Shown piece after piece: positions 16,547-58,059 of a stretch of DNA of 64,000 nt (within the stretch, counting starts at the first letter, position 1; each line of letters opens with the position of its first letter). The stretch comes from Sistotremastrum niveocremeum HHB9708. Its lineage: Eukaryota; Basidiomycota; Agaricomycetes; Sistotremastrales; Sistotremastraceae. The notes below the pieces were generated by a model. That model had not been told where the DNA came from and ran no database searches. It saw only the letters and a program-made list of their open reading frames with translations. The position numbers and the translations under genes are program-made. Location of the stretch: positions 311,664 to 375,663 of the forward strand of contig KV419414.1 of NCBI GenBank assembly GCA_001630475.1. Direction: 5' to 3'.

Positions 16547-16878
16547 ATGCCTCCTAAGAAAGCCGTCACCGACGCTGAGAAACCCGCCAAGAAGAGTACG
16601 CCCTTTTTCTTCCCCTTTCCGCTTCCGCGTTTTTAACGTCTTCATCATTAGCGAAATCCGGTGGCCGCACGAAGAAGGTCTCAGCGTACAATAAATTCAT
16701 GCAAACCGAACTTGCACGTCTCAAGGAGACTGAACCCAATACTCCCCATCTCGAAAGGTGCGTCCCTCCCCCCCGCCTCTTCTCTGTTCGGCGACTCATT
16801 TTGATGACGGCTGTTAGGTTCAAGATGGCTACGCAGAATTGGAAGACTGCAAAGGAGAACCCGAAGGCTGAAGCGTAG
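16547..16878 (+). CDS. Small YABBY/HMG-like chromatin protein, 71 residues
   Basis: Three exons (16547-16595, 16652-16757, 16818-16878) encode 71 residues beginning MPPKKAVTDAEKPAKK. The core reads KKVSAYNKFMQTELARLKET, then HLERFKMATQNWKTAKENP, the conserved HMG-box-like helix pair (AYNxFMxxEL...RFKxAxxNW) of the YABBY-like family of small fungal nuclear proteins. The lysine-rich N terminus is consistent with DNA binding and nuclear import. Intron positions split an Arg/Lys codon at each junction and all sites are GT-AG. Such proteins are abundant single-domain chromatin-associated factors; the specific role here is not known. Confidence 0.85.
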
Positions 16879-17943: not shown

Positions 17944-18035
17944 GCCGTGATAGCTCAGCTGGGAGAGCAGTAGACTGAAGCATCCCATCCGGGTTGGTAT
18001 TCTAAAGGTCGCCTGTTCGAGCCAGGCTCATGGCA
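17944..18035 (+). tRNA. tRNA-Phe (GAA) with a 19-nt intron
   Basis: The acceptor stem is GCCGTGA paired with TCATGGC (one G-T pair). The D arm is GCTCAGCTGGGAGAGC and the T arm is GCCTG-TTCGAGC-CAGGC. The anticodon loop reads CTGAAG, anticodon GAA, then a 19-nt intron at 17981-17999 placed after position 37, the canonical site. The first anticodon-stem pair is a G-A mismatch; the other four pairs are good. The internal A and B boxes are intact and a T4 run follows, so the gene looks functional. Confidence 0.93.
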
Positions 18036-19109: not shown

Positions 19110-19626
19110 CTCATTGGGAGACAAGAAAAGAAAATTTTGGGATCCATAGGGTCCCGAAACTTCATTTCACTGATACGACGCTGGGTTAGCGTGAGGTCTG
19201 TATTGCACGATTGTGTTAAAACCCGGAATTTTTTTCAATGCCCTTGTAAGATTGCGGCTGTGAGCTCCACCCTTCAGCGAAGTACCCGAAAATCGACCAG
19301 GCAGAAGTTATACAATGACTCGAGCTCGGCTAATTTCCCCGTTATGATATGCGTGAGACGCATCAGCTAGACGTTGAATGTTAACATTTGGCTTTCGTCA
19401 AACGTTCCCCTTACCCTACCCGGAAACACCCCGACCATATGGAGAGATGCCAAGGTGATCATCGGCAGGTCGATTGTGCACGCTCGGAGGACCATGCAGA
19501 CCACCGCCGTGTGATTAGCGTATTGGGGATGTTGGAGTAAACAAGAACGACTCGTCCATAAAACCTGCTGGAAATCGGTCGACTTCATCCTCACCTTCAA
19601 GCGAAATCCTCATTCGACAGCTTCAT
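19110..19626. other. Upstream region of dsRBD gene A
   Basis: About 500 bp with no gene recognised. The last 80 bp form the promoter and leader of the gene at 19627; see the TATA-like entry. Confidence 0.4.
19557..19563 (+). promoter_or_regulatory. TATA-like element of dsRBD gene A
   Basis: CATAAAA lies 70 nt before the ATG at 19627. The paralogue at 21649 has TATAAAT 89 nt before its ATG, and both leaders share a TCATCCT..TTCAA(G/A)CG segment, suggesting that the duplication included the promoter. Confidence 0.4.
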
Positions 19627-19949
19627 ATGGCCGACTTCAAGAGAATTATTATGGCGCACAGTTTCATCTCGTCCAGGAAGAAAACATACCTGGCCCAGCT
19701 TTCTGAGCTCGCGTCTCGGAATGGCGTCACCCTGGAATGGGAGGAAATGAGTGATGGTCCAGATCATCATACTATTTGGCAGGTGTATCCTATTGGTAAG
19801 CTTCTCGAAAGTCCGAAACACGCCTGCTGATCCCGAAATGGACAGTGAATGGACAGAAATGGACCATGTACATCCAGGCTGCTTCAAACAAGAAAGACGC
19901 AAAGGAGAAATCCGCAGAAGATGTCATAATGAAGCTTCGCGGACTATAG
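19627..19949 (+). CDS. Stand-alone double-stranded-RNA-binding domain protein (copy A), 90 residues
   Basis: Two exons (19627-19795, 19846-19949) encode 90 residues; the intron splits a Val codon after YPI. The start MADFKRIIMAHSF is followed by one dsRBD filling the rest: helix 1 (KTYLAQLSELASRNGVTLEW), the strands (EEMSDGPDHHTIWQVYPI, VNGQKWTMYIQAAS) and the conserved helix 2 start NKKDAKEKSAEDVIMKL. KKDAKEKSA corresponds to the KK-AK--AA RNA-contact motif of the family. No other domain is present. The protein is probably cytosolic or nuclear and binds duplex RNA; partners are unknown. It is a paralogue of the gene at 21649, with the intron at the same codon. It differs at many positions, so the duplication is not recent. 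Confidence 0.75.
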
Positions 19950-20125
19950 TGAGTTTTCCAATGCGCTGGAGGTGTTGTAGCACTTATGCTCGTACTATCA
20001 GTGTTTGAAGTCCCTATAGTGACCGGCTTCGATGGCGATCACCTGCCTTCCATGGATATTTTATTTATCTATAGTTATCCCCTCATATGTCGTGTTATGG
20101 CAGAAGGGAGAATGTTTACTGCAAT
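19950..20125. other. 3' flank of dsRBD gene A
   Basis: Short non-coding flank; nothing recognised. Confidence 0.3.
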
Positions 20126-20500
20126 TTATTCGTTACCTAGCTCGTCGTGAACAGTCAAAATGTAACCTACTTTATATATCAACGGAGTCCTTCTATACAC
20201 GATCGGCGACGTCTCCAATGACCTGACATTGACTGGCTCATTCGGTGAAAGAGCAAGGTCTTGATGATGCTGCCTGCGCTTTATAAAATTTGCCGCATAA
20301 AATTCAGCTGCATCAAGGTAAAACGAGGTGTCGAGAATATTCTGTGACGCGATAGTAGGAAACAGAACTCCTCCGGATAATCGCCGATCGTTCGTGGCAT
20401 GACTGAGTTCATATAGCCGATCAGACGACGAGCATTGGATGATGCTAAAGGGATAGTACAACCCGACGACGCCTCTGTGAAGGAGCGCTAATGATCGAGT
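20126..20500 (-). CDS. Unrecognised coding-like segment between the two dsRBD genes
   Basis: An open minus-strand frame of over 110 codons reads GVVGLYYPFSIIQCSSSDRL, then ELSHATNDRRLSGG, LDAAEFYAANFIKRRQHHQD, and ends at a stop at 20126. Composition and codon use look like real protein and there is no repeat content. No ATG is in a good position, so an upstream exon would be needed. No family is recognised. Confidence 0.3.
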   Translation of the reverse strand, partial: TRSLALLHRGVVGLYYPFSIIQCSSSDRLYELSHATNDRRLSGGVLFPTIASQNILDTSFYLDAAEFYAANFIKRRQHHQDLALSPNEPVNVRSLETSPIVYRRTPLIYKVGYILTVHDELGNE

Positions 20501-21648
20501 ATGCGCCGATCAGCCATCTGCAGAGGTCCTGTGCTCAGAAAGTCTCAAAGTCTAGCGCTTAATAGTCATAAAGACTCGCAGGATTAGTGTACGATATGGA
20601 TCGTAGAGCGACCTTGGCACCTTGCTGGCCGTGACAAGCTTAGGTCGATGTACGATCCAGATGGGTTCATCAAGGGCGAGTCCGGTATTTCTTCAGACGC
20701 CGGATGACTATTGGTGGAGGACAAAAAGCGCCATTCCGGCCGTGTGGCGCCTGTCCGGGTCTCAAAGCTGTACCTTTAGATGTATGGCGATTGTTGAGAC
20801 TGGATCGCAGGTGCTTTCGAAACAAGATTGTTTTCCACGATGAAGGACGACCAAGCACAAGAATCACCAGATACACGTGGTAATACGTAATCAGTTGATG
20901 TTCTCACAGTGCAAGTAGATCCTAGCACGAGCTTTATGATGTGCTAACCGCGAATCATTAATGAAGCTCAGACAAGTGTCCAAGGCGAACTACCAACGGA
21001 GTTATGAACGCTGCATCGCTTATGAAGCAGTTCCCGACCGAGAATGCGGAAAGTACTGCCACTTCATATTGAGTCAGAGCAATGCTATGTTGTAGGCATT
21101 TATTCAATCTGCGCTCTTGTCTGTGACGCACAATTATGCCACATATAGCGTACGATGCGCGTGGCATAGTGCTATCTGTGAATGAGAGGACGGAACCGAA
21201 AGGTGTGGCACCTCTCCGCCACTGATGGCCCAGATCTCCAGTAGTGCAAGAGCTTCCGGACTAATTGGAGACCGAGTTAGGTATAGTTTCGAACAGGTGA
21301 GCACCTGTGTCTGACGACGGAGAGTGAGCCAATAGCTTCCTAAGCGTCGTTCAAACTGTAACTATGACGCTGATCGGTGAAATGATGGCGGCGGATTGAA
21401 GATACCTCAAGGGAAGCAAAGATTATTGACTTTGGGGTATGCGTAGAGATCGCAACAGGACCTTTGGTGGTGCTGGTGGTTCACAGACCTTGCACCACCG
21501 ACGGTCTCAGGTTGTTTCAAAGCGAGCAGCGCAAGCCGTCGAGCACGGTCTTTCTCTTCTATAAATCGAATTAGTTCGATGGAGTTCGACAGAAACAGAA
21601 CCCATACATCGAATCATCCTTCAAACGCAATTTACTCCAAGAGATAAA
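20501..21648. other. Intergenic between the dsRBD paralogues
   Basis: About 1.1 kb. I looked for a third, decayed dsRBD copy (AAAGAGGCGAAGG-like helix 2 codons) and found none. The promoter of copy B occupies the last 100 bp. Confidence 0.35.
21560..21566 (+). promoter_or_regulatory. TATA box of dsRBD gene B
   Basis: TATAAAT lies 89 nt upstream of the ATG at 21649, in line with the similar element before copy A. Confidence 0.45.
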
Positions 21649-21975
21649 ATGGCCGATTTCAAAGCTGTCATCCTTGGACACACTTTCGTGTCTTCGACTC
21701 AGAAGCCATACGTCACCCAGCTCACTGAATTGGCCGCGCAAAACCGCGTCACTCTGGAGTGGGCTGAGGTACGTGAAGGTCCTGAGCAGACAACAATCTG
21801 GTACTGCTATCCCATAGGTGAGTTCTATGCAGAAAAAAGCCCTTAATGAAAACTCACTTTTCGCGCAGTGAATGGTCAAGCTTGGGCATCATACAACCAA
21901 GCGGGTTCTAGCAAGAAAGAGGCGAAGGAGAAATCCGCTGCCGAGACTGTTAGGATGCTTCGCCGATCCAAGTGA
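21649..21975 (+). CDS. Stand-alone double-stranded-RNA-binding domain protein (copy B), 91 residues
   Basis: Two exons (21649-21817, 21869-21975) give 91 residues. MADFKAVILGHTF leads into a single dsRBD: helix 1 KPYVTQLTELAAQNRVTLEW, then EVREGPEQTTIWYCYPI, strand VNGQAWASYNQAGS and helix 2 SKKEAKEKSAAETVRMLRRS. SKKEAKEKSA is the hallmark RNA-binding motif. Here it is closer to the family consensus than in copy A, which has NKKDAKEKSAED. Same orientation, same intron phase and codon as copy A, 1.7 kb apart: a tandem duplication. With no catalytic domain it could act as an adaptor or a competitor for Dicer, Argonaute or ADAR-type proteins, or shield viral or structured RNA; that is inference. 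Confidence 0.78.
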
Positions 21976-22436: not shown

Positions 22437-24384
22437 ATGCAACGCGCTCTGCCCATGGTACGTGCAGTCCCTCCCTCGCAGTCGATCAACGTCCTAAGTA
22501 TCATATAGCAACCTACGATAGTGCTCCTAAAGGAGGGTACCGACACTTCCCAAGGAAAAGGCCAACTTCTCTCAAATATCTCGGCATGCCTCGCAGTCGC
22601 AGAAACCCTTGCGACCACATTAGGTCCTCGGGGTATGGACAAGCTGATTGTGTCGCAGAGAGGAGAGGCACAGATCACTAATGATGGAGCTACCATTTTG
22701 AAGCTTTTGGATATCGTACATCCTGCTGCGCGAACGCTGGTCGATATTGGACGTGCGCAGGATGCTGAAGTCGGGGATGGAACGACGAGCGTGGTTCTGT
22801 TGGCGGCCCAGATCCTGAAAGAGATCAAGGGTTATATTGAGGAGGGTGTCAGTCCCCAGATTATCATTAAGGGTTTACGGAAAGCTTCACAACTGGTACG
22901 CACACGCAATGCGCTGAATTATGATTCCTTCTTCTCACCATGCATGCATTCTGTTAGGCCATTGATCGTATTAAGGAACTGCAAGTCACGGTTGACAAGT
23001 CTGATTCAAAGTCTGTTGATTTCTCTGTTTACCTTCATTCTTAGCTGACTAAGTCTAGACGATTCCGTTCACTTTTACTCAAATGCGCGTCAACGTCCAT
23101 GTCCTCGAAACTCATCCATTCTGAAAAGCCCTTCTTCTCCGAGATGGTGGTTGATGCAGTCCAGTGCCTCGACCAGGACGACCTTGACGAAAATTTGATC
23201 GGCATCAAAAAAATCCCTGGCGGCGGCATGACTGATTCACTCCTCATCCGCGGTGTCGCCTTTAAAAAGACTTTCACATACGCCGGTGCTGAGCAACAGC
23301 CAAAATCTTTCAAAAATCCCCTCATCTTGAGCCTGAACGTCGAACTTGAACTCAAAGCTGAGAAGGACAACGCGGAGGTTCGCGTGGAGGCTGTGTCGGA
23401 TTATCAGGCCATCGTCGACGCAGAGTGGGAGATTATCTATCGCAAACTGCAGGCAATCGAGAAGACTGGCGCCAAGGTTGTCTTGAGCAAGCTGCCGATC
23501 GGTGATCTTGCGACCCAGTGGTTCGCTGACCGTGACATCTTCTGCGCTGGTCGTGTCCCCGCCCAAGATCTGAAGCGCGTAGTCCAAGCTGTCGGAGGTT
23601 CGGTGCAGTCGACTACTTCCAACATCTCACGAGAGCATCTTGGAACTTGTGGATCGTTCGAGGAGCGACAGCTTGGCGGAGAGCGATATAATGTTTTGCA
23701 AGACTGCCCCAAAGCGAAGACCTGCACTCTGCTTTTGAGAGGTGGAGCAGATCAGTTCATCGAAGAGGTCGAACGCAGTCTGCACGATGCCATCATGGTG
23801 GTGAAGCGTGCCATCAAGAATGGAGACGTTGTTGCAGGAGGTGGCGCCATCGAGGTTCGTTGGTCCCTTGCATAAAGATATGTTCTTTCGCTGACTTGTC
23901 GCAGATGGAGTTGTCGGCTTACATTCGCAAGCACGCTCTTGGCATTCCGGGAAAGATTCAGTTAATCATGACTGCTTTCGCTCGCGCTCTTGAGATCATC
24001 CCGCGTCAGATATCCGATAACGCCGGAATCGACTCCACGGATATTCTCAACAAACTCCGAATGCGTCATGCCGCTGGGGAGAAGTGGGTTGGTGTGGATG
24101 TTGACGGCGTGGAAGGTGTCCGAGACAACATGGAGGCATTCGTTTGGGAACCCAGTCTGGTCAAAGTCAACGCTATCAGCAGTGCGACTGAGGCAGCGTG
24201 CCTGATCCTCAGCGTTGACGAGACTGTCAGAGGACCCCAGAGTGAACAGGTTAGTTATCTCCTTTCGTGTCTTTCTTTGTGGATGACCTGACGTTCTTTC
24301 TAGCCCAATCCAGGTCCCAGAGCACCGCCTGGAGCTGCTCAGAGAGCTCTTCGGGGACGTGGTAGGGGAATGCCCCGTCGGTGA
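22437..24384 (+). CDS. CCT7: T-complex protein 1 subunit eta (CCT7)
   Basis: Six exons (22437-22457, 22509-22895, 22958-23010, 23059-23854, 23905-24249, 24304-24384) join to 560 residues, the usual length. This is one of eight subunits of the cytosolic TRiC/CCT chaperonin that folds actin, tubulin and WD-repeat proteins using ATP. Diagnostic segments are [18 protein letters not shown] (eta-specific start), [13 protein letters not shown] and [11 protein letters not shown] (nucleotide binding), [15 protein letters not shown] with the catalytic Asp, GGERYN in the apical domain, [12 protein letters not shown] and [14 protein letters not shown]. The C terminus ends [10 protein letters not shown], like the Gly/Arg tail of other eta subunits. 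Exon 1 encodes just seven residues (MQRALPM). All motifs are intact. Confidence 0.96.
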
Positions 24385-34972: not shown

Positions 34973-36829
34973 TCTGAGAGTGTTTGGAGATGAGAAAGAT
35001 CTGAGGATGCGATGGATGTGTGGTGGAACAAGTTGTTGATTAGCCTTTGTGCGGAAAATCGGAGATTATATAGCATGATGGCCAAAGAGTGCAATACAAG
35101 CCCAAACAAACACAAAGCGGGTCTTCAACCCAATACGAACAATACAATGCACTGTTCTGTCAAGTGTCCTTGCAAAATAATGCTGTTAAATTCTGCTTTG
35201 AGAAGCAGCTTTATTCTCTCCTTCGACGCGGTCAACCCCAGCGGTATAATAGATTGATTTCGTACTGCGTAGAATAAATTCGAAGCAAGAACTTGAAGCA
35301 AGCAAGATTGCTCTTGGATCGACAAAGGTCAACTTGGGAGATGTGTATATCCCTAGCTACCTGTTGTGTCGAACATACAGAAGCTAGCAGCCAAGATTCT
35401 GGCCCAGAAAAGCCGAACAGTATTCCAGAGGACATTATCAATAATATAAATGGTGTTGAATTCTGAAGATTCATTTTCTAAAAGATAAAACATGATTGTG
35501 GACTTGAACGTCGCGCATCCACGGTTCAGTCCTACAAGTAGAATATTACAGATATGCACGAGCACTTTGACGACGTGCGCTTCACAATGACCACCAGTGT
35601 GCCATCCGGTAGTCTCGACTACAGGATTAGACGATGGGAGGTGGTCATGAGATTGGCACCAGGTCATGAGTCACTGGATGGGGATAGCATCAAATCTTTT
35701 GATCAGAGGTGCCCCACGGAGATACGTAACGAGGGCTGAGAAAGTTACTGCAGTAGTCCGCAGAGATAATCCTAGTCAAACCTTCGTTTATTCTGCAAGC
35801 GGACGCTGAAGTGTTTCAATGCAGGTACTTTCAGCACAACATCTACTGATGCAGGAATGCTAGCTCGGATTTGCTGCGATCACCAATAAGCCCAGATTGC
35901 GACTGGCGCGGTAAAATCTTAGAGCCTCTTTTTACTAGCTTCCATGATACTGGGATGAATCGGAGACAGACAAGATGGAGGAGTGAATTCTTTTGTATCC
36001 ATTCCTCCTTCATTGATGCGAATGCGAGACTCGTTGCGAGAGGTTGGTCAATGTGATAATTACGAAGCCAGAGAATGTCTAAGGACTTAGTCCAAACAAA
36101 TGATGGCTTGATCGGTTCAGATACGATAGAATGAGCATTTATTGGTTCGAAAACATGAACGATGACTTGCCTGGTCCTAGATTGGGATTATATAGCCAGT
36201 CGCCGACGCACGTGGGCCCTTCGAGCTTCAAAGTTCAACCAATTGGCTGCCATAAATGTCCTGAACAAAAGAGAAGGCGAGAAAAGGCCTCTGACTTGAA
36301 AACATGGACTAATGAAAAGATCGGGAACGGATGGCAGCATAAACAGCTCAAGGGGATGCTTTGGATGCTTGTCTCTCAGAATAGCACGCCGTTGCTATGC
36401 GAACCGGTTTTAGCAGCGGTCTAAAATGCAAAAAATGCCGCCGAAAATGCTGAAAATATTGTCAGGTCCTCAGAATACAGGGTAGATAACGCTTACAAGA
36501 ATTGCAGAGATAATCAAAAGATGAATGATTTTGACGTTACAGATGGCAACGACGGGATCGACCAGGGGCGCGCGCAGGTGGCCTTGTTTGGTCTTGTGTG
36601 TTTGACGTTAGCGTCTCGGTCTCGTCCCAGGCTTGCTAACGTCCCCGTTCTGCTCAATGTCCCATCCTCGCCAGATCTAAATAATCGTCCAAAATAATCA
36701 TTCAGACTCGTACGTTCTCTTACTGTAGTACCGAACGCGTCTGACGATGTGGCACTGGCAGCTTGAATGCCTTGCTAAGATAATAATACGACCCGCCGTA
36801 AAACGAATTTGAACGGAACGAGAACGACC
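34973..36829. other. Intergenic upstream of the large disordered-protein gene
   Basis: About 1.9 kb. A plus-strand ATG frame at 36131-36424 (97 codons, starts MSIYWFENMNDDLPGPRL) is the best candidate but has no motif. The last 300 bp are the likely promoter for the gene at 36830. Confidence 0.35.
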
Positions 36830-39800
36830 ATGAACCGACCCTCACCCACGCCATCGCCATCTGCATCCACCTCCTCAGCTACGCCACCTCGGTACCCCCC
36901 TCCCCGAGCACCTCTGCCTCCTCAAAAGCTCGCGAAAATAGCAAACGCGTTTGGCTTTTCATCACCCATCCCACCATCGCCTTCCTCGAGTAGTCTAGGA
37001 ACACCCAATGGCATCGGGCATGGCCATTTGTCGTCCTCATTATTCTCAAGGAGTCCTTCGTCGCTCAGCACATCTCATCATCTTCACGGATATGGTTATG
37101 GCTCGTCTTCACCCTCGAAATTCCTTTTACACGTTATACCGCCATCACATCTACCTCACGACGACGAAGAGCTCGACTCGCTGGATGATCTAGGAGGCAT
37201 GGGAGGTGGGAGACCGCTGACACCTACGTCGTCTAATGCAAATGGAGGACCGAGTGGATATCATACGCAGTTCCAGCGAGGAACGCTCGTCCCGCTCCAT
37301 TCGAGCTTGCAAGGTCAACTGGGAGCCATCGCGAGAGAATATGCGCTCCCCTCCACCTCCGGGATGATCCTTTATCTGGTCCAATCTCCCTCGGACGCTT
37401 CATCACCTTCACCCGCCGACGAGAACGCAGTTGACGGACGAACCATGGGGCCCAGAATCTCGGAGCATATCTGGAAGGCATTGTGGCACCGTGTAGTTTC
37501 TCTCGAACGAGAAGAGTCAGCTCGTTCAATCGGTCTATCTCAAGGACCTGGATCAGGCCCAGGAATGGGATTACGAGAAGGAGTTATGTACACCACTCCT
37601 TCAGCTACACGAACCAGTACACCCCGCTCCCCCAATCCATCTCATCTTCCTCTCTCCGCATCGCCACGTCGAGATCGGACACACACGCCTGGATATCCAT
37701 ATCCTTCCCCCAGTCCTTCAACTACTCATACCTCCAACTCGGCCTCTGCATCATCTCCTCACCTCCCACATCCCTCTTCTCATTCCACACCAGACGATGC
37801 CTCCGAAGTCGATTCGATATCAACTCCTTCATTACCCCCCTCATACACATCTTCACTAAACCTCTCTACATCTTCCCTTCTACCCATCATAGCCAAGATG
37901 GAATTCGACATCGACAGACGGAAAGCACCATGGTACGATATCTGGGCTCGAAAACGACGAGAAGCCGTTTCGCGCGCTGCGACTCGTGCTAGCGAGTCCT
38001 CGAATACAACTTTGAACGGAGGCCGAGAAACACCTTCGACACTCAGGTTATTAACACCGCAACCGGAATCGAGATGGGGTGCGAGGAGAACACCTAGTCC
38101 TGGGTCGAGGAGTGCTAAGGGTGGGATTAGAAGAGGAGAGATGATACCGGTTGAGATTGGGAGTCGGGAAGAGGCTATTGCGCATTTGAGGGGTGTTGTT
38201 ATTCCGACGCGGGCGTCTTCTAGGGTCGAAGAGAGAGGGTATTCGACAGAACCTGAACCTGAGCCGGAAATGGAGCAGGAGGAACTCGACGAGGGGGACC
38301 TGGAGGAGGAAGCCCTGGAAGATCCGGAACGTCTTGATCTCGAAGACCCTGTCCACGTCCGGCAGGTTTCTTTAAGTAGCCGACAACGACATTCACATCA
38401 CTCGCAACATCAGCGAGTAGAGGATGAGGACGATGCCTCGGATTACGGCTCAGATGACGATGGCGGTCATTCGCTTGAAGAAGATCTTCCCCTTGACACT
38501 CATGGCGGCTACCAAGAATTGGCGAATGATAGCGAATCTTCATTGCCTGTTGCTCCCCACTCCGAGCCTTTCCGTGCCGAAGATGAAGACGAGCGGGAGC
38601 AGGAAGACGAGGTTGAGGAAGAGCCTGTGCCTCATTATGAACATTTACCTTCACATTCGCGATTACCTTCTCCCGAAATTCTTGAAGATCCCCCCATCCA
38701 TGCTGACGATCCTCATCCTCATGAACATGAACAACACCAACCTGCACACCTTGAACATGAGCCTGAGGAAGAATCAGGGGAAGATGAAGAAGGTGACGAG
38801 GCTGAGGAAGAGGAGGATCCGACTGTTACGAGAGCTTTCGAGAAAGCTATGGCGCGGTTCTCGGCAGGACTTGGTCCCGGACCTGGAGCTGGAGGATTAG
38901 ATGAACAGATGCTCATGGACATCCAACAAGATCGCCACGATCACGACGACGACGATTTGAGTGTTGATGACAAGGAGGCGGAGGCGGATGATGTGAATGA
39001 GAGACGGACGTCGAAGCTGGAGAAGAGGAGGTCGCTGATCATGGACGCTGTCCAACTGGGTCCTATGCCTCATCGCGACAACGAGGACGATGTTGAGGAA
39101 GGAGGAGGCTTGGAAGTGGAAGTTGAGGATGTGAAGAAATTGTGGGACGAGAATGGACGGCCAAGATTGAGCTTGACCATCCCTGGCTCTGTTCCTTCCC
39201 CTCAGAATCATGTGAATCCAGAGTCGGAGAAAGACGAGGAAGGAGATCGACATCATGGGCGAGAAGTGACCGAATCCCCAGCTATGATCGATGGATTCGA
39301 GAACGTCGACTTTGCAGCTCACCCACTACCTCCTCTGCCACCTTCGACGACTACTACACTCAGCACAACGAGCTCGGGAGGGAGCCCCCAAAAGAGACAT
39401 ATTCCTCCTCCGTTGTCCCTGTCAATATCATCTTATCATCCGCAAGGACAAGGACCAGGTCACGGTCATCCGAATGTCCCACATACAGCTGTGCCACCGT
39501 ATACTGCTGCGTTTAGTGATGAGATGGACCTTCTCAACTCTGAGATCGCGAAGCTCGAGCATGAACAAGAGCTCGTTCTGGGTCTGAAGGACGGTGATAT
39601 CGACTCCAACGACGCCAATGTCAACGCCAATGTCAATAGGGGGAGAAGAGATACGGACGATCGATTGAGTCCTGCGGAATCGACGAAAACTGGGTTGGCG
39701 TACCTTGATGAAGAAGCGAGGACGCCCGCCGTATCTGATTCTGGGCATGGACCTAGCCCCGTCCCTTTGATTCCTGCACTTGGGAAAGGACATGAGAGGA

Positions 39801-42444
39801 AGATTACAGGCCTGGATAGTGGAGACTTTGTGAAGGGCATGATGGATGTACGTTCGTTTTCTTCAAATTCCTTCCTCGAAAGCTGACATTTCTACAGGGA
39901 GAAAGCGAGGACGAGGAGGCGCAGGGACACGAGGACGAACATGAGATTGCGGATGAGACGTGGGGGAATAGTGCGAGGGATGAGTCGTCGTACGCGCATA
40001 CGACGCTTACGCATTCTACGTCGCATTCACAGTCGACGACTTTCCTTCCTCAATTCACGTCAACCCTCCAATCGCATTCTCGTCTCCCTTCCATGTCATC
40101 CACCCATTCCCGAATGTCTTCGTTCTCCCAACTATCGGACGACGATCCACGTTCAAGTCAGTACGCGATGAAGCAAAGGCTGGACGAAATAGAAAGGGTA
40201 CGCCAACCCCCTTCCTCTCCTATTGATAACCAGCATCCGAAACCCTCTGTTCATCCTGCTCCTTCTCCCACGAGGGCGAGAGTGAGGGTGAGGAGGGTGA
40301 GGCACTCAAATGTACCTGCTCCTTTGGTTATACAGGCACTGCTTCAGTATTCGCCACGCGAGTTAATTCCTAGTGAAGATGGAGGTCAAGATGCCAACGC
40401 GGACGCAGGAGGGTCGAGGCCGGATGGTGGATTGATGGTCAGAGATGTCGGGAGAGGTGAGATGCCGATGGGCGCAGGTGGCTTGACGCCGCCGCCTCGA
40501 ACATCGTCTATTCGTGCAGCCGCGTCAGCGGAACATCCATCGAACCAGCTCGGTCCTCCAATTGCCATCCCCCCTGTCCCTACATTACCCTCCTTGACAT
40601 CTCTACCAACCGCTTCATCATCCTCATCGCTCGCTCCCTCTTCTTCATTATCGGCCGGTCCCCGGCATCCAGCGCTTACTCCCGGAAACTTAAATCTAAG
40701 CGAAATGGCGCCTCCGTCATTCAGACAACCCAATCTCATCGGAACGCCTTCTCCTCGTCGATCCGAAGAATCGAGTGAAGAGCCTCCGCGGAGTGCTGGA
40801 TGGCCTGCCGTTCCGTTCGCCGTAGCTCAATCTGAACCTCCACCATTCTCTCGCGATCTCAGCACGAATTATCCAAAGAAAAAGCCAGCTGAAGGAGGTG
40901 CGAAGAGGATATCCCCACCTAAACTTGCGTTGAATGGTGTCACGAGCGGCGCTCCGCCTGGGTTCAGACCTGTTTCAAATGAGATTAGTGAGGAGACAAA
41001 AGCCAGGATCAGAGAGAATGCGGTTGAGCATGAGTTCGACTATGATCTTGTGGGGCGGGATGAAGCTTCGATCGGCGCTGGAGAGAGAAACTCGACCGCC
41101 ACGGATGAAGTGAAAGAACCGAGCTCGCCGGGATATCCGATCTCCCCAGATCCATTTGGACGAAGGCCCAGTTTCCTGGAGAGTGATCCCGCCGGTCCTC
41201 TCGTTCCTGAAACGGCCACCACTGCGACATCCACATCATCGGGATCAGTGGGCGGAGGATTCTGGTCTGCTTCCTCTCCCGCGAAGAATAGCAGCCGGTT
41301 CTCGGCTGATTCTGAAGCAGAGGAGACATACGCTGCCACGGTCGCTGCAAACAGACAAAGATCGAACTCAATCATCTCTGTGAAGAGCTTCAGGAAGTTG
41401 TGGAGGAAGTCAAATCCCAGTAATAACGGTGCTAGGAATTCCGGCGGACCTCCTCTCCTTCCTCCCATGTCTGTTCTGCATGCCAACGCGGCTAATGGCA
41501 ATCTGCCTCCTCCGCCAGTGCCAAAAGATGAACATGCCGAACCTGTTCCTCCACTGCCGACCGTCGTCTCGCGACCACCCGTTTCGAAGCAGAGCTCGAT
41601 ATCGACAACGTCGTCATCACATACTCGACAGAGTCAATCGAGCAAACATTCGCGGACAGATTCGAATCTTGATCCCTTCCATTTCGATCAAGAATCAAGA
41701 TATCCAGCGAAGAGGACCACGTCACCAGTCCCCCCTCACAACATCACTTCATCTCCTTCGAAACCTCAGTCACCTCCGCTTGCGCCGGCATCGATGCCTG
41801 CGAGTACAAGCATGACCAGTGTGTCTTCGAGTGGGGCAGCGCCGGCGAAAAAGTCGATTCTTAAGGCTTGGAAGTATCCTACGAATGGATCTCAATCCGT
41901 CCCTTCCCCATCGCCGAACTCTGATCCACTTCCGTCAACAGCTTCATTTTCATCCATCAATGGATCTACAGATCCTCAAGTCCCTCCTAAAAGACGGAAG
42001 CCTAGTGTCCTAGAACTTGCTCAGAATGCAAAGAGCCGCATGTCCCGCGGTTCATTGATCTCATCGGCCAGCCGGTCCGGAACACCCGATCTAGCACGTC
42101 CCGAGCGTGACGATCCTCCTCAACCATCTCCTTCATTACCTACATCTCCTCCGCCTTCTCAGCAGCAGCTCAATCAACCGTATCCACCTCGGTTGCAGCC
42201 CGTATCAACGCGAACACCGACACCGACACCTGGCCCTTCTTCACTATCGCCGCCTGCGATGATGAGTGAATTCGTGCTGCCTTCGCCTGCAGAGTTGGCT
42301 CTGAGAGATAGGAGGGGAGCGGCGGGGAGGAAGAAAGTGCCCACACTTCCGCCTTCCTCGTCGACGGACCTGAGTCGCGCGGGTTCGCCGAACTTGGGTC
42401 ATGGTATGCCTACGTTCTCATCGTCCCATGGGACACGGATATGA
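36830..42444 (+). CDS. Large disordered protein, 1854 residues, unrecognised family
   Basis: Two exons (36830-39847, 39898-42444) with a single 50-nt intron give 1854 residues, starting MNRPSPTPSPSASTSS. Most is low-complexity: Ser/Pro-rich ends, an acidic middle (EEESGEDEEGDEAEEEED) and Pro-rich SH3-ligand-like runs. More ordered islands are GQLGAIAREYALPSTSGMIL with YLVQSPSD and ISEHIWKALWHRVVSLEREE (near 37.3-37.5 kb), LLPIIAKMEFDIDRRKAPWY with DIWARKRREAVSRAA (near 37.9 kb), DEMDLLNSEIAKLEHEQELV (39.5 kb) and SIISVKSFRKLWRK (41.4 kb). Those islands suggest a conserved fungal scaffold with several binding motifs, perhaps in polarity or signalling, but I do not recognise it. Base composition is even across the gene, so I see no sign of fusion or transfer. 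The long uninterrupted frames make the model secure. Confidence 0.85.
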
Positions 42445-56917: not shown

Positions 56918-58059
56918 ATGGACTCCCACCACGACCTCCTCGCTATGGACGATGCCTCCATGGGTTCCAAGAGTCCCACCTTTGCCATGGACGACTCCTC
57001 TGCCTTCTTCGATTACAACCAGGTATCCGACACCTATCCATCTTTCGGCGGTCCCTTTGGACTCGCTCATCACACTTGTAAGTTTTCTTTCAAATCGATT
57101 TGCTTCCGTGATCCGATAGCTAATCGCGGACGATCTGCTAGCGACTTCGCCCGTCATGAACTACAACTCGCTCAACACGCTCTCGTTGTCTGGCTCAGGC
57201 ATCAACGACTTCATGTACGCCCCGATGCCGACGAACCCCCCATTTGCTGCTACTCGTCCTTACACTCCCGTCGACGGGATCCACTCTATCACCCCCTCCC
57301 TTACGCATCTCAGTCCCGCTAATCTCAGCGCTTCTGAGCTGTCAGGTGATGGACTCCCGTCGAGCCGACGAAGCAGCACCGGTTCGCCTGCATCCCAGCA
57401 TGGCTCTCGCTCTCTCCCCTCTACCAATGGCGGTATCGCACCGACTGCCATTACCCCTCCTCCCCAATCTGCAGGTAGTCACTCTCGTCAAAACAGTGTC
57501 GGCTCCAACGCGTCTGCGAGGTATAATCCCATCAATACCTCCACGCGGCCGATGAGAGCTACTCGCAGTAAGAGGGCTAAGACGGAGGAGAGCGACGATG
57601 AAGACGATGCCGACTTCCAGCCCTCGAATCTCCCCTCGTCCGATCACCGTCGGGAGGAGATCAGGAAGCAGCGCATCGAGTCTGAGCAGCGAAGACGTGA
57701 CGAACTCCGTGATGGGTATCGCCGATTGAAGGATGCTCTGCCCAGTTCCAACCAAAAGTCAAGCAAGGTTTCATTGTTGGACAGGGGTAAGTCGTATTTG
57801 GTTTGACAGCGGAAATCGGCGAGTGGCTGACACTTTGTTTGACAGCTGTCACCCATATCAAGTACTTGGAGATGACACAAGGCTCTCTGCAGCAGAGATT
57901 GACCGCTGCCGAAAATGAAATGCAGCGTCTGAGACAGTACGTGGTTTTCACAACGTCATCAGTAGCTTTGTCTGACGATATCACAGAGTCAACGAAGCTC
58001 TTATGCTTGGTACCGCCGAGCAACGCCACGCCGCTGCAGTCGCCGCTCACAACTACTGA
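56918..58059 (+). CDS. bHLH transcription factor, 322 residues
   Basis: Four exons (56918-57077, 57142-57786, 57846-57936, 57987-58059) join to 323 codons including TGA. The start is the ATG of MDSHHDLLAMDDASMG. Residues 1-210 are Ser/Thr/Pro-rich and disordered. An NLS-like RATRSKRAKTEESDDEDD precedes the domain. The basic region is HRREEIRKQRIESEQRRRDE (Glu and Arg in the E-box-contact positions), helix 1 continues LRDGYRRLKDALP, the loop is SSNQKSSK, and helix 2 is VSLLDRAVTHIKYLEM. A leucine-zipper-like helix follows (QRLTAAENEMQRLRQ). It should bind CANNTG-type sites as a dimer. An intron interrupts helix 2, as in other fungal bHLH genes. The target pathway is unknown. Confidence 0.88.

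Follow-up and report, generated by a model that had tools for sequence, protein, structure and literature searches.

Two small genes in tandem, here called copies A and B, lie in the window, by which we mean the whole 64-kb stretch of DNA that was analysed (C21:311664-375663). The coordinates of both genes, of the other features of the window and of related loci elsewhere in the genome are collected in the Table. Copies A and B are separated by 1,699 bp and their products are 57% identical. Exon 1 is 169 nt long in both and the codon split by the phase-1 intron is that of Val57 in both, so the first-pass annotation, which described tandem single-dsRBD genes with an intron in the same codon, is borne out by the gene models. 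First, second and third codon positions of A and B are 73, 79 and 39% identical, respectively, a pattern that chance open frames would lack. On this pattern, the two genes are old protein-coding paralogues under purifying selection acting on the whole protein. The NG86 estimate of dN is ~0.31, and dS is saturated (5.2 or 2.0 depending on the alignment); for this reason we give no exact dN/dS value.

Table. Positions of copies A and B, of other features of the window, and of family loci in the genome (window positions unless a contig is given)
Feature	Position	Strand	Description
Copy A TATA-like hexamer	19557-19562	+	CATAAA, 70 nt before the ATG of A
Copy A gene	19627-19949	+	90 aa; two exons, one intron
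Copy A exon 1	19627-19795	+	N-terminal stretch, helix 1 and strands 1-2 by alignment
Copy A intron	19796-19845	+	50 nt, phase 1, GT-AG
Copy A exon 2	19846-19949	+	strand 3 and KKDAK helix 2 by alignment; ends with stop TAG
Copy B TATA-like hexamer	21560-21565	+	TATAAA, 89 nt before the ATG of B
Copy B gene	21649-21975	+	91 aa; two exons, one intron
Copy B exon 1	21649-21817	+	gene model
Copy B intron	21818-21868	+	51 nt, phase 1, GT-AG
Copy B exon 2	21869-21975	+	strand 3 and KKEAK helix 2 by alignment; ends with stop TGA
Small split gene	16547-16878		one two-intron model gives a 71-aa protein
tRNA	17944-18035		Rfam tRNA, 49.4 bits
CCT/TCP-1 chaperonin gene	23045-23872		downstream of B; Cpn60_TCP1, E 4.5e-74
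Two long open frames	36779-42444		1035 and 874 codons, slight overlap; no Pfam match at E 1e-4
Open frame with terminal helix-loop-helix domain	57120-57803		HLH, 32.7 bits
Family loci on C21	~136.0, 137.3, 142.8, 145.2 and 180.0 kb, plus A and B	+, -, +, +, + (A and B as above)	exon-wise protein search
Family loci on C32	145.7 and 147.9 kb	+, +	exon-wise protein search
Family loci on C43	148.8 and 146.4 kb (148.6 and 146.3 in the tree)	-, -	exon-wise protein search
Family locus on C41	269.5 kb	-	both exons present, start not resolved

A TATA-like hexamer precedes both genes, in keeping with the first-pass annotation. The leaders, which it also took to be related, are otherwise no more alike than chance, as 108 of 500 mononucleotide shuffles reach the local score between the two upstream regions (200 nt each).

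Several further features of the window were recorded. In the 71-aa product of the small split gene, the last 54 residues score 39.9 bits against YABBY (cut-off 28.6), with weaker matches to HMG boxes; this product is another fungal microprotein. The tRNA is 92 nt long and so probably contains an intron; ARAGORN, run with a bacterial setting, reports no tRNA in the 64-kb window.

The dsrm search suggested by the first-pass annotation, run on both translations, returns a match above the cut-off for each. Pfam dsrm (PF00035, curated cut-off 23 bits) matches copy A with 29.6 bits (E 1e-6, profile positions 4-65 of 66) and copy B with 24.9 bits (E 3.2e-5, profile positions 1-65 of 66). It is the sole Pfam family above its own cut-off in A and B, with one dsrm stretch per protein, and the Pfam scan finds no RNase III domain in either of these proteins, which are just 90 and 91 aa long. 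A short conserved N-terminal stretch, FxxxIxAHxF-like, precedes the dsRBD in the ~90-residue proteins of the family. The identification of A and B as stand-alone dsRBD proteins is thus well supported at the sequence level. AlphaFold models are of low confidence (pLDDT 57 and 60) with helix 2 broken, and fold searches with these low-confidence models give no convincing dsRBD match.

Copies A and B are not the isolated pair for which they were first taken. At least 12 loci of the family, A and B counted, are present on four contigs (C21, C32, C43 and C41). They were found by exon-by-exon protein searches of the 34.7-Mb genome (111 contigs), and such locus counts are lower bounds; a final search with one divergent member from the same genome gives no extra locus. 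The genome also gives 40 matches to DUF6533, a Pfam family abundant in basidiomycetes, in line with an agaricomycete source. Complete spliced models of 88-102 aa, with GT-AG introns and the frame kept, were built for 10 members. All 10 have a phase-1 intron of 46-64 nt in the same Val codon, although the models were picked by their similarity to family profiles and the agreement is not fully independent. In the member at C21:145.2 kb exon 1 is intact and exon 2 carries damage at a short repeat. Further downstream of this member lies an open frame that by eye resembles the polymerase/RNase H end of a Copia-type element.

Neighbours in the same direction are spaced 2.0-2.4 kb apart in the window pair, the C32 pair, the C43 pair and C21:142.8/145.2. 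In a midpoint-rooted tree of 13 rows, with support below 80 on six of the 10 inner branches, C32:145.7 groups with C43:148.6 (99/97) and C32:147.9 with C43:146.3 (88/91), and this cross-pairing in the same order makes it probable that a tandem pair was duplicated as one block. DNA similarity among members is almost wholly within exons, which argues that the duplications are old.

Nine of the 11 members scanned fall below the dsrm cut-off, the exceptions being A and B; the best scores among the others are 18.9 and 13.3 bits, and at E up to 1 dsrm matches three of the 10 rows of family alignment A1, A and B included. A profile of nine members (A and B excluded) matches an alignment of four dsRBDs, those of the RNase III-type genes on C7 and C3, the Dicer on C6 and a DRB2 fragment from a plant; the match has a probability of 97.1% and a score of 57.0 over 66 columns. 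As controls, the best of 200 column shuffles scores 16.1 and the reversed profile 12.2. By this profile comparison the nine further members are, as a group, dsRBDs missed by Pfam, and dsrm overlooks most of such a family. Six residues (Q24, W38, W51, P55, V57 and S79) are invariant in both the nine-member and the ten-member family comparisons.

In dsRBDs, the KKxAK and GPxH motifs make contact with the RNA duplex. All three basic residues of KKxAK are found in two of the 11 members compared, A (KKDAK) and B (KKEAK), and GPxH in three, A (GPDH), C21:142.8 and C21:180.0; copy B reads GPEQ, without the histidine. The damaged copy at C21:145.2 kb, which lies outside the 11-member comparison, has GPNH in its exon 1. 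To say that B keeps the contact motif and A varies it, as was first proposed, is misleading, since KKDAK retains both lysines, the alanine and the third lysine. The accompanying idea that A is the diverged copy has matters the wrong way round, in that A also has GPDH, the higher dsrm score and the closest similarity to the dsRBD on C7. Judged by these features A is the most canonical member of the family. With moderate confidence, we infer from the retained residues that A and B bind A-form RNA duplexes; most other members would be expected to bind duplex RNA weakly or not at all.

A possible origin for the family lies in the RNase III-type genes of the same genome. A six-frame dsrm search of the genome lists C3:722 kb, C11:369 kb and C7:232 kb; A and B are absent from this list because their exons are read separately. 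An RNase III match stands beside dsrm on the same strand at C3 and C11. At C7 the upstream exons, joined by eye, match Ribonucleas_3_3 with E 2.8e-5 and 24.7 bits, below the cut-off of 35. The largest single C7 exon piece alone gives no RNase III match. When the joined C7 protein is searched against the PDB (E 0.01), 12 chains are returned, all of which bear the names of dsRBD proteins and none that of an RNase III. The signature motif at C7 is degenerate by eye, so this RNase III-like protein may be inactive. C7:231292-234399 holds a tandem of two genes, the apparently degenerate RNase III-like gene with its strong dsRBD (46.6 bits) and, directly downstream, a second gene of RNase III type (52.3 bits, joined by eye).

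The dsRBD on C7 is interrupted by an intron of 50 nt and phase 1 at the codon that aligns with that of the family intron (CI/VDGQ versus PI/VNGQ, the slash marking the intron), and the dsRBD on C3 has no intron inside the domain. Identity to the C7 domain is 23/70 (33%) for A, 20/71 for B and 14-27% for nine other members. The C3 RNase III domain, at 19/69 (28%), is little below A, so that C7 does not stand out by sequence alone, and in the tree the family is separated from C7 and C3 (97/96; midpoint root). The intron position and phase held in common with C7 point to descent of the family from an RNase III-type dsRBD, with A close to the founder. We therefore consider it moderately well founded that the family goes back to the dsRBD at the C-terminal end of an RNase III-type protein and was multiplied by tandem and block duplication, although an intron older than both the family and the C7 lineages would give the same picture. 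Such a history suggests a route from an enzyme domain to free-standing microproteins.

Genome searches give Piwi matches at five places (C14, C5 twice, C3 and C51), RdRP matches at five (C15, C5, C31, C11 and C8) and Dicer_dimer (DUF283) matches at three (C6, C1 and C3), and silencing machinery is accordingly present in the genome. The earlier remark that the small proteins have no known catalytic partner here can hold for the window, but not for a genome with Dicer-type, Argonaute, RdRP and RNase III matches. The C-termini were read at two of the three Dicer regions, C3:143-145 kb being left out, and these two Dicers have weak, divergent dsRBD-like matches there (16.1 and 15.6 bits, both below the cut-off, one of them joined by eye); no Dicer locus is listed by the six-frame dsrm search. 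A split-Dicer arrangement, in which the microproteins supply a dsRBD missing from Dicer, is weakened by the dsRBD-like C-termini at two of the three regions; as both of these Dicers seem to retain a divergent dsRBD, there is no obvious need for one in trans. Separate dsRBD proteins steer Dicer in plants and animals (PMC12663654, PMC4894637). The accessible part of a survey of 1592 fungal proteomes describes most fungal Dicers as being without a detectable dsRBD, and names DRB4 and HYL1 in plants and ADAR1 in mammals as dsRBD cofactors bound by DUF283 (PMC12663654).

We lean, tentatively and with somewhat less than even confidence, towards a reading in which A and B are members of an expanded dsRBD family, derived from RNase III, that plays an accessory or competitor part in RNase III/Dicer steps. 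A and B would bind duplex RNA and then present it to, or withhold it from, RNase III/Dicer nucleases, and the contact-poor paralogues could act through dsRBD-dsRBD pairing or through pairing with the DUF283 domain of Dicer. That the proteins serve as small accessory or competitor subunits in these steps is conceivable, and the adaptor or competitor role in RNA silencing offered by the first-pass annotation is reasonable but unproven; against a link to silencing, the gene downstream of B encodes a CCT chaperonin, unrelated to RNAi. A more elaborate and rather doubtful form of the proposal is that, in an agaricomycete-like fungus, an RNase III-like dsRBD became detached and was multiplied to at least 12 microproteins, most of them missed by Pfam, acting as tunable competitors or hetero-dimer partners of RNase III and Dicer, with A and B holding duplex RNA and the rest working through protein contact. 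If true, the microproteins would form a class of fungal silencing regulators for which the literature reached has no description.

Some dsRBDs of TRBP and Loquacious serve as dimerisation partners, and the loss of at least one basic residue of KKxAK in nine of the 11 members and of GPxH in eight, with the six invariant residues persisting despite it, would suit a family made up chiefly of such partners, with no more than residual RNA binding left in A and B. The contact lysines are nevertheless retained in A and B, and the codon pattern between them speaks for purifying selection on the entire protein; we regard this alternative as rather improbable. The canonical contact residues of A and B could also belong to an antiviral or anti-transposon shield or sensor, TATA-driven and inducible, that coats dsRNA independently of Dicer, and the copy number and divergence of the family would suit a changing target. 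TATA boxes are associated with regulated genes, and [TC]ATAA[AG] occurs 50-110 nt before the ATG in nine of the 10 complete members (C21:136.0 is without it), as compared with a mean of 0.47 members in 2000 Markov resamples, none reaching nine, although this pattern was picked after viewing the upstream sequences and the comparison covers family members and not other promoters of the genome. A shield should also keep the KKxAK residues that nine of the 11 members have lost in part, and we think it unlikely. That the family is evolutionary debris, a set of partial copies that are drifting and have little function, if any, is very improbable, for although its members are scattered and very diverged and one has a damaged exon 2, there are 10 intact spliced models with GT-AG introns, a mean codon-position identity of 0.54/0.59/0.33 over 45 pairs of members, and TATA-like boxes in nine of 10.

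A one-domain dsRBD family that shares its genome with several Dicer, Argonaute and RdRP loci provides testable candidates for accessory or competitor proteins in RNase III/Dicer steps. The domain itself is well known. Short proteins with a dsRNA-binding domain are on record in public databases for many mushrooms, and are not known to have been studied functionally. A narrow literature search found no fungus described as having several genes for one-domain dsRBDs and no fungal counterpart of the dsRBD Dicer cofactors of plants and animals, the absence of which is not thereby proven.

The nearest known relatives are the C-terminal dsRBDs of RNase III-type proteins (C7:232 kb and C3:722 kb), which are the same domain by profile and, at C7, have the intron position and phase of the family. 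A and B differ from these proteins in having no nuclease domain and an N-terminal stretch of their own, and in the alignment the segment linking strand 3 to helix 2 is longer by two residues in the family. The 340R silencing suppressor of iridovirus IIV-6 likewise has one canonical dsRBD, whose lysines are needed for full duplex binding, but it is a viral protein of 23 kDa that requires a 73-aa C-terminal part, and the fungal proteins have no such tail (PMC4231766). In the experiments described in the accessible part of that report, a 100-aa dsRBD piece of 340R gives no silencing suppression and apparently no dsRNA shift (PMC4231766). By analogy, a lone dsRBD may be too weak unless dimerised, and the fungal proteins may depend on dimerisation or on their N-terminal stretch. 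The Dicer and miRNA cofactors HYL1/DRB4, Loquacious, TRBP and RbdB are, like A and B, non-catalytic dsRBD proteins, and it is with these that A and B may be compared as candidate Dicer partners (PMC12663654, PMC4894637). Such cofactors typically have at least two dsRBDs where A and B have one each, although this is not strict. As given in the available portion of PMC4894637, Loquacious has three dsRBDs, Dictyostelium RbdB has one in 733 aa and RbdA one in 297 aa, whereas the fungal proteins carry their single dsRBD within ~90 aa.
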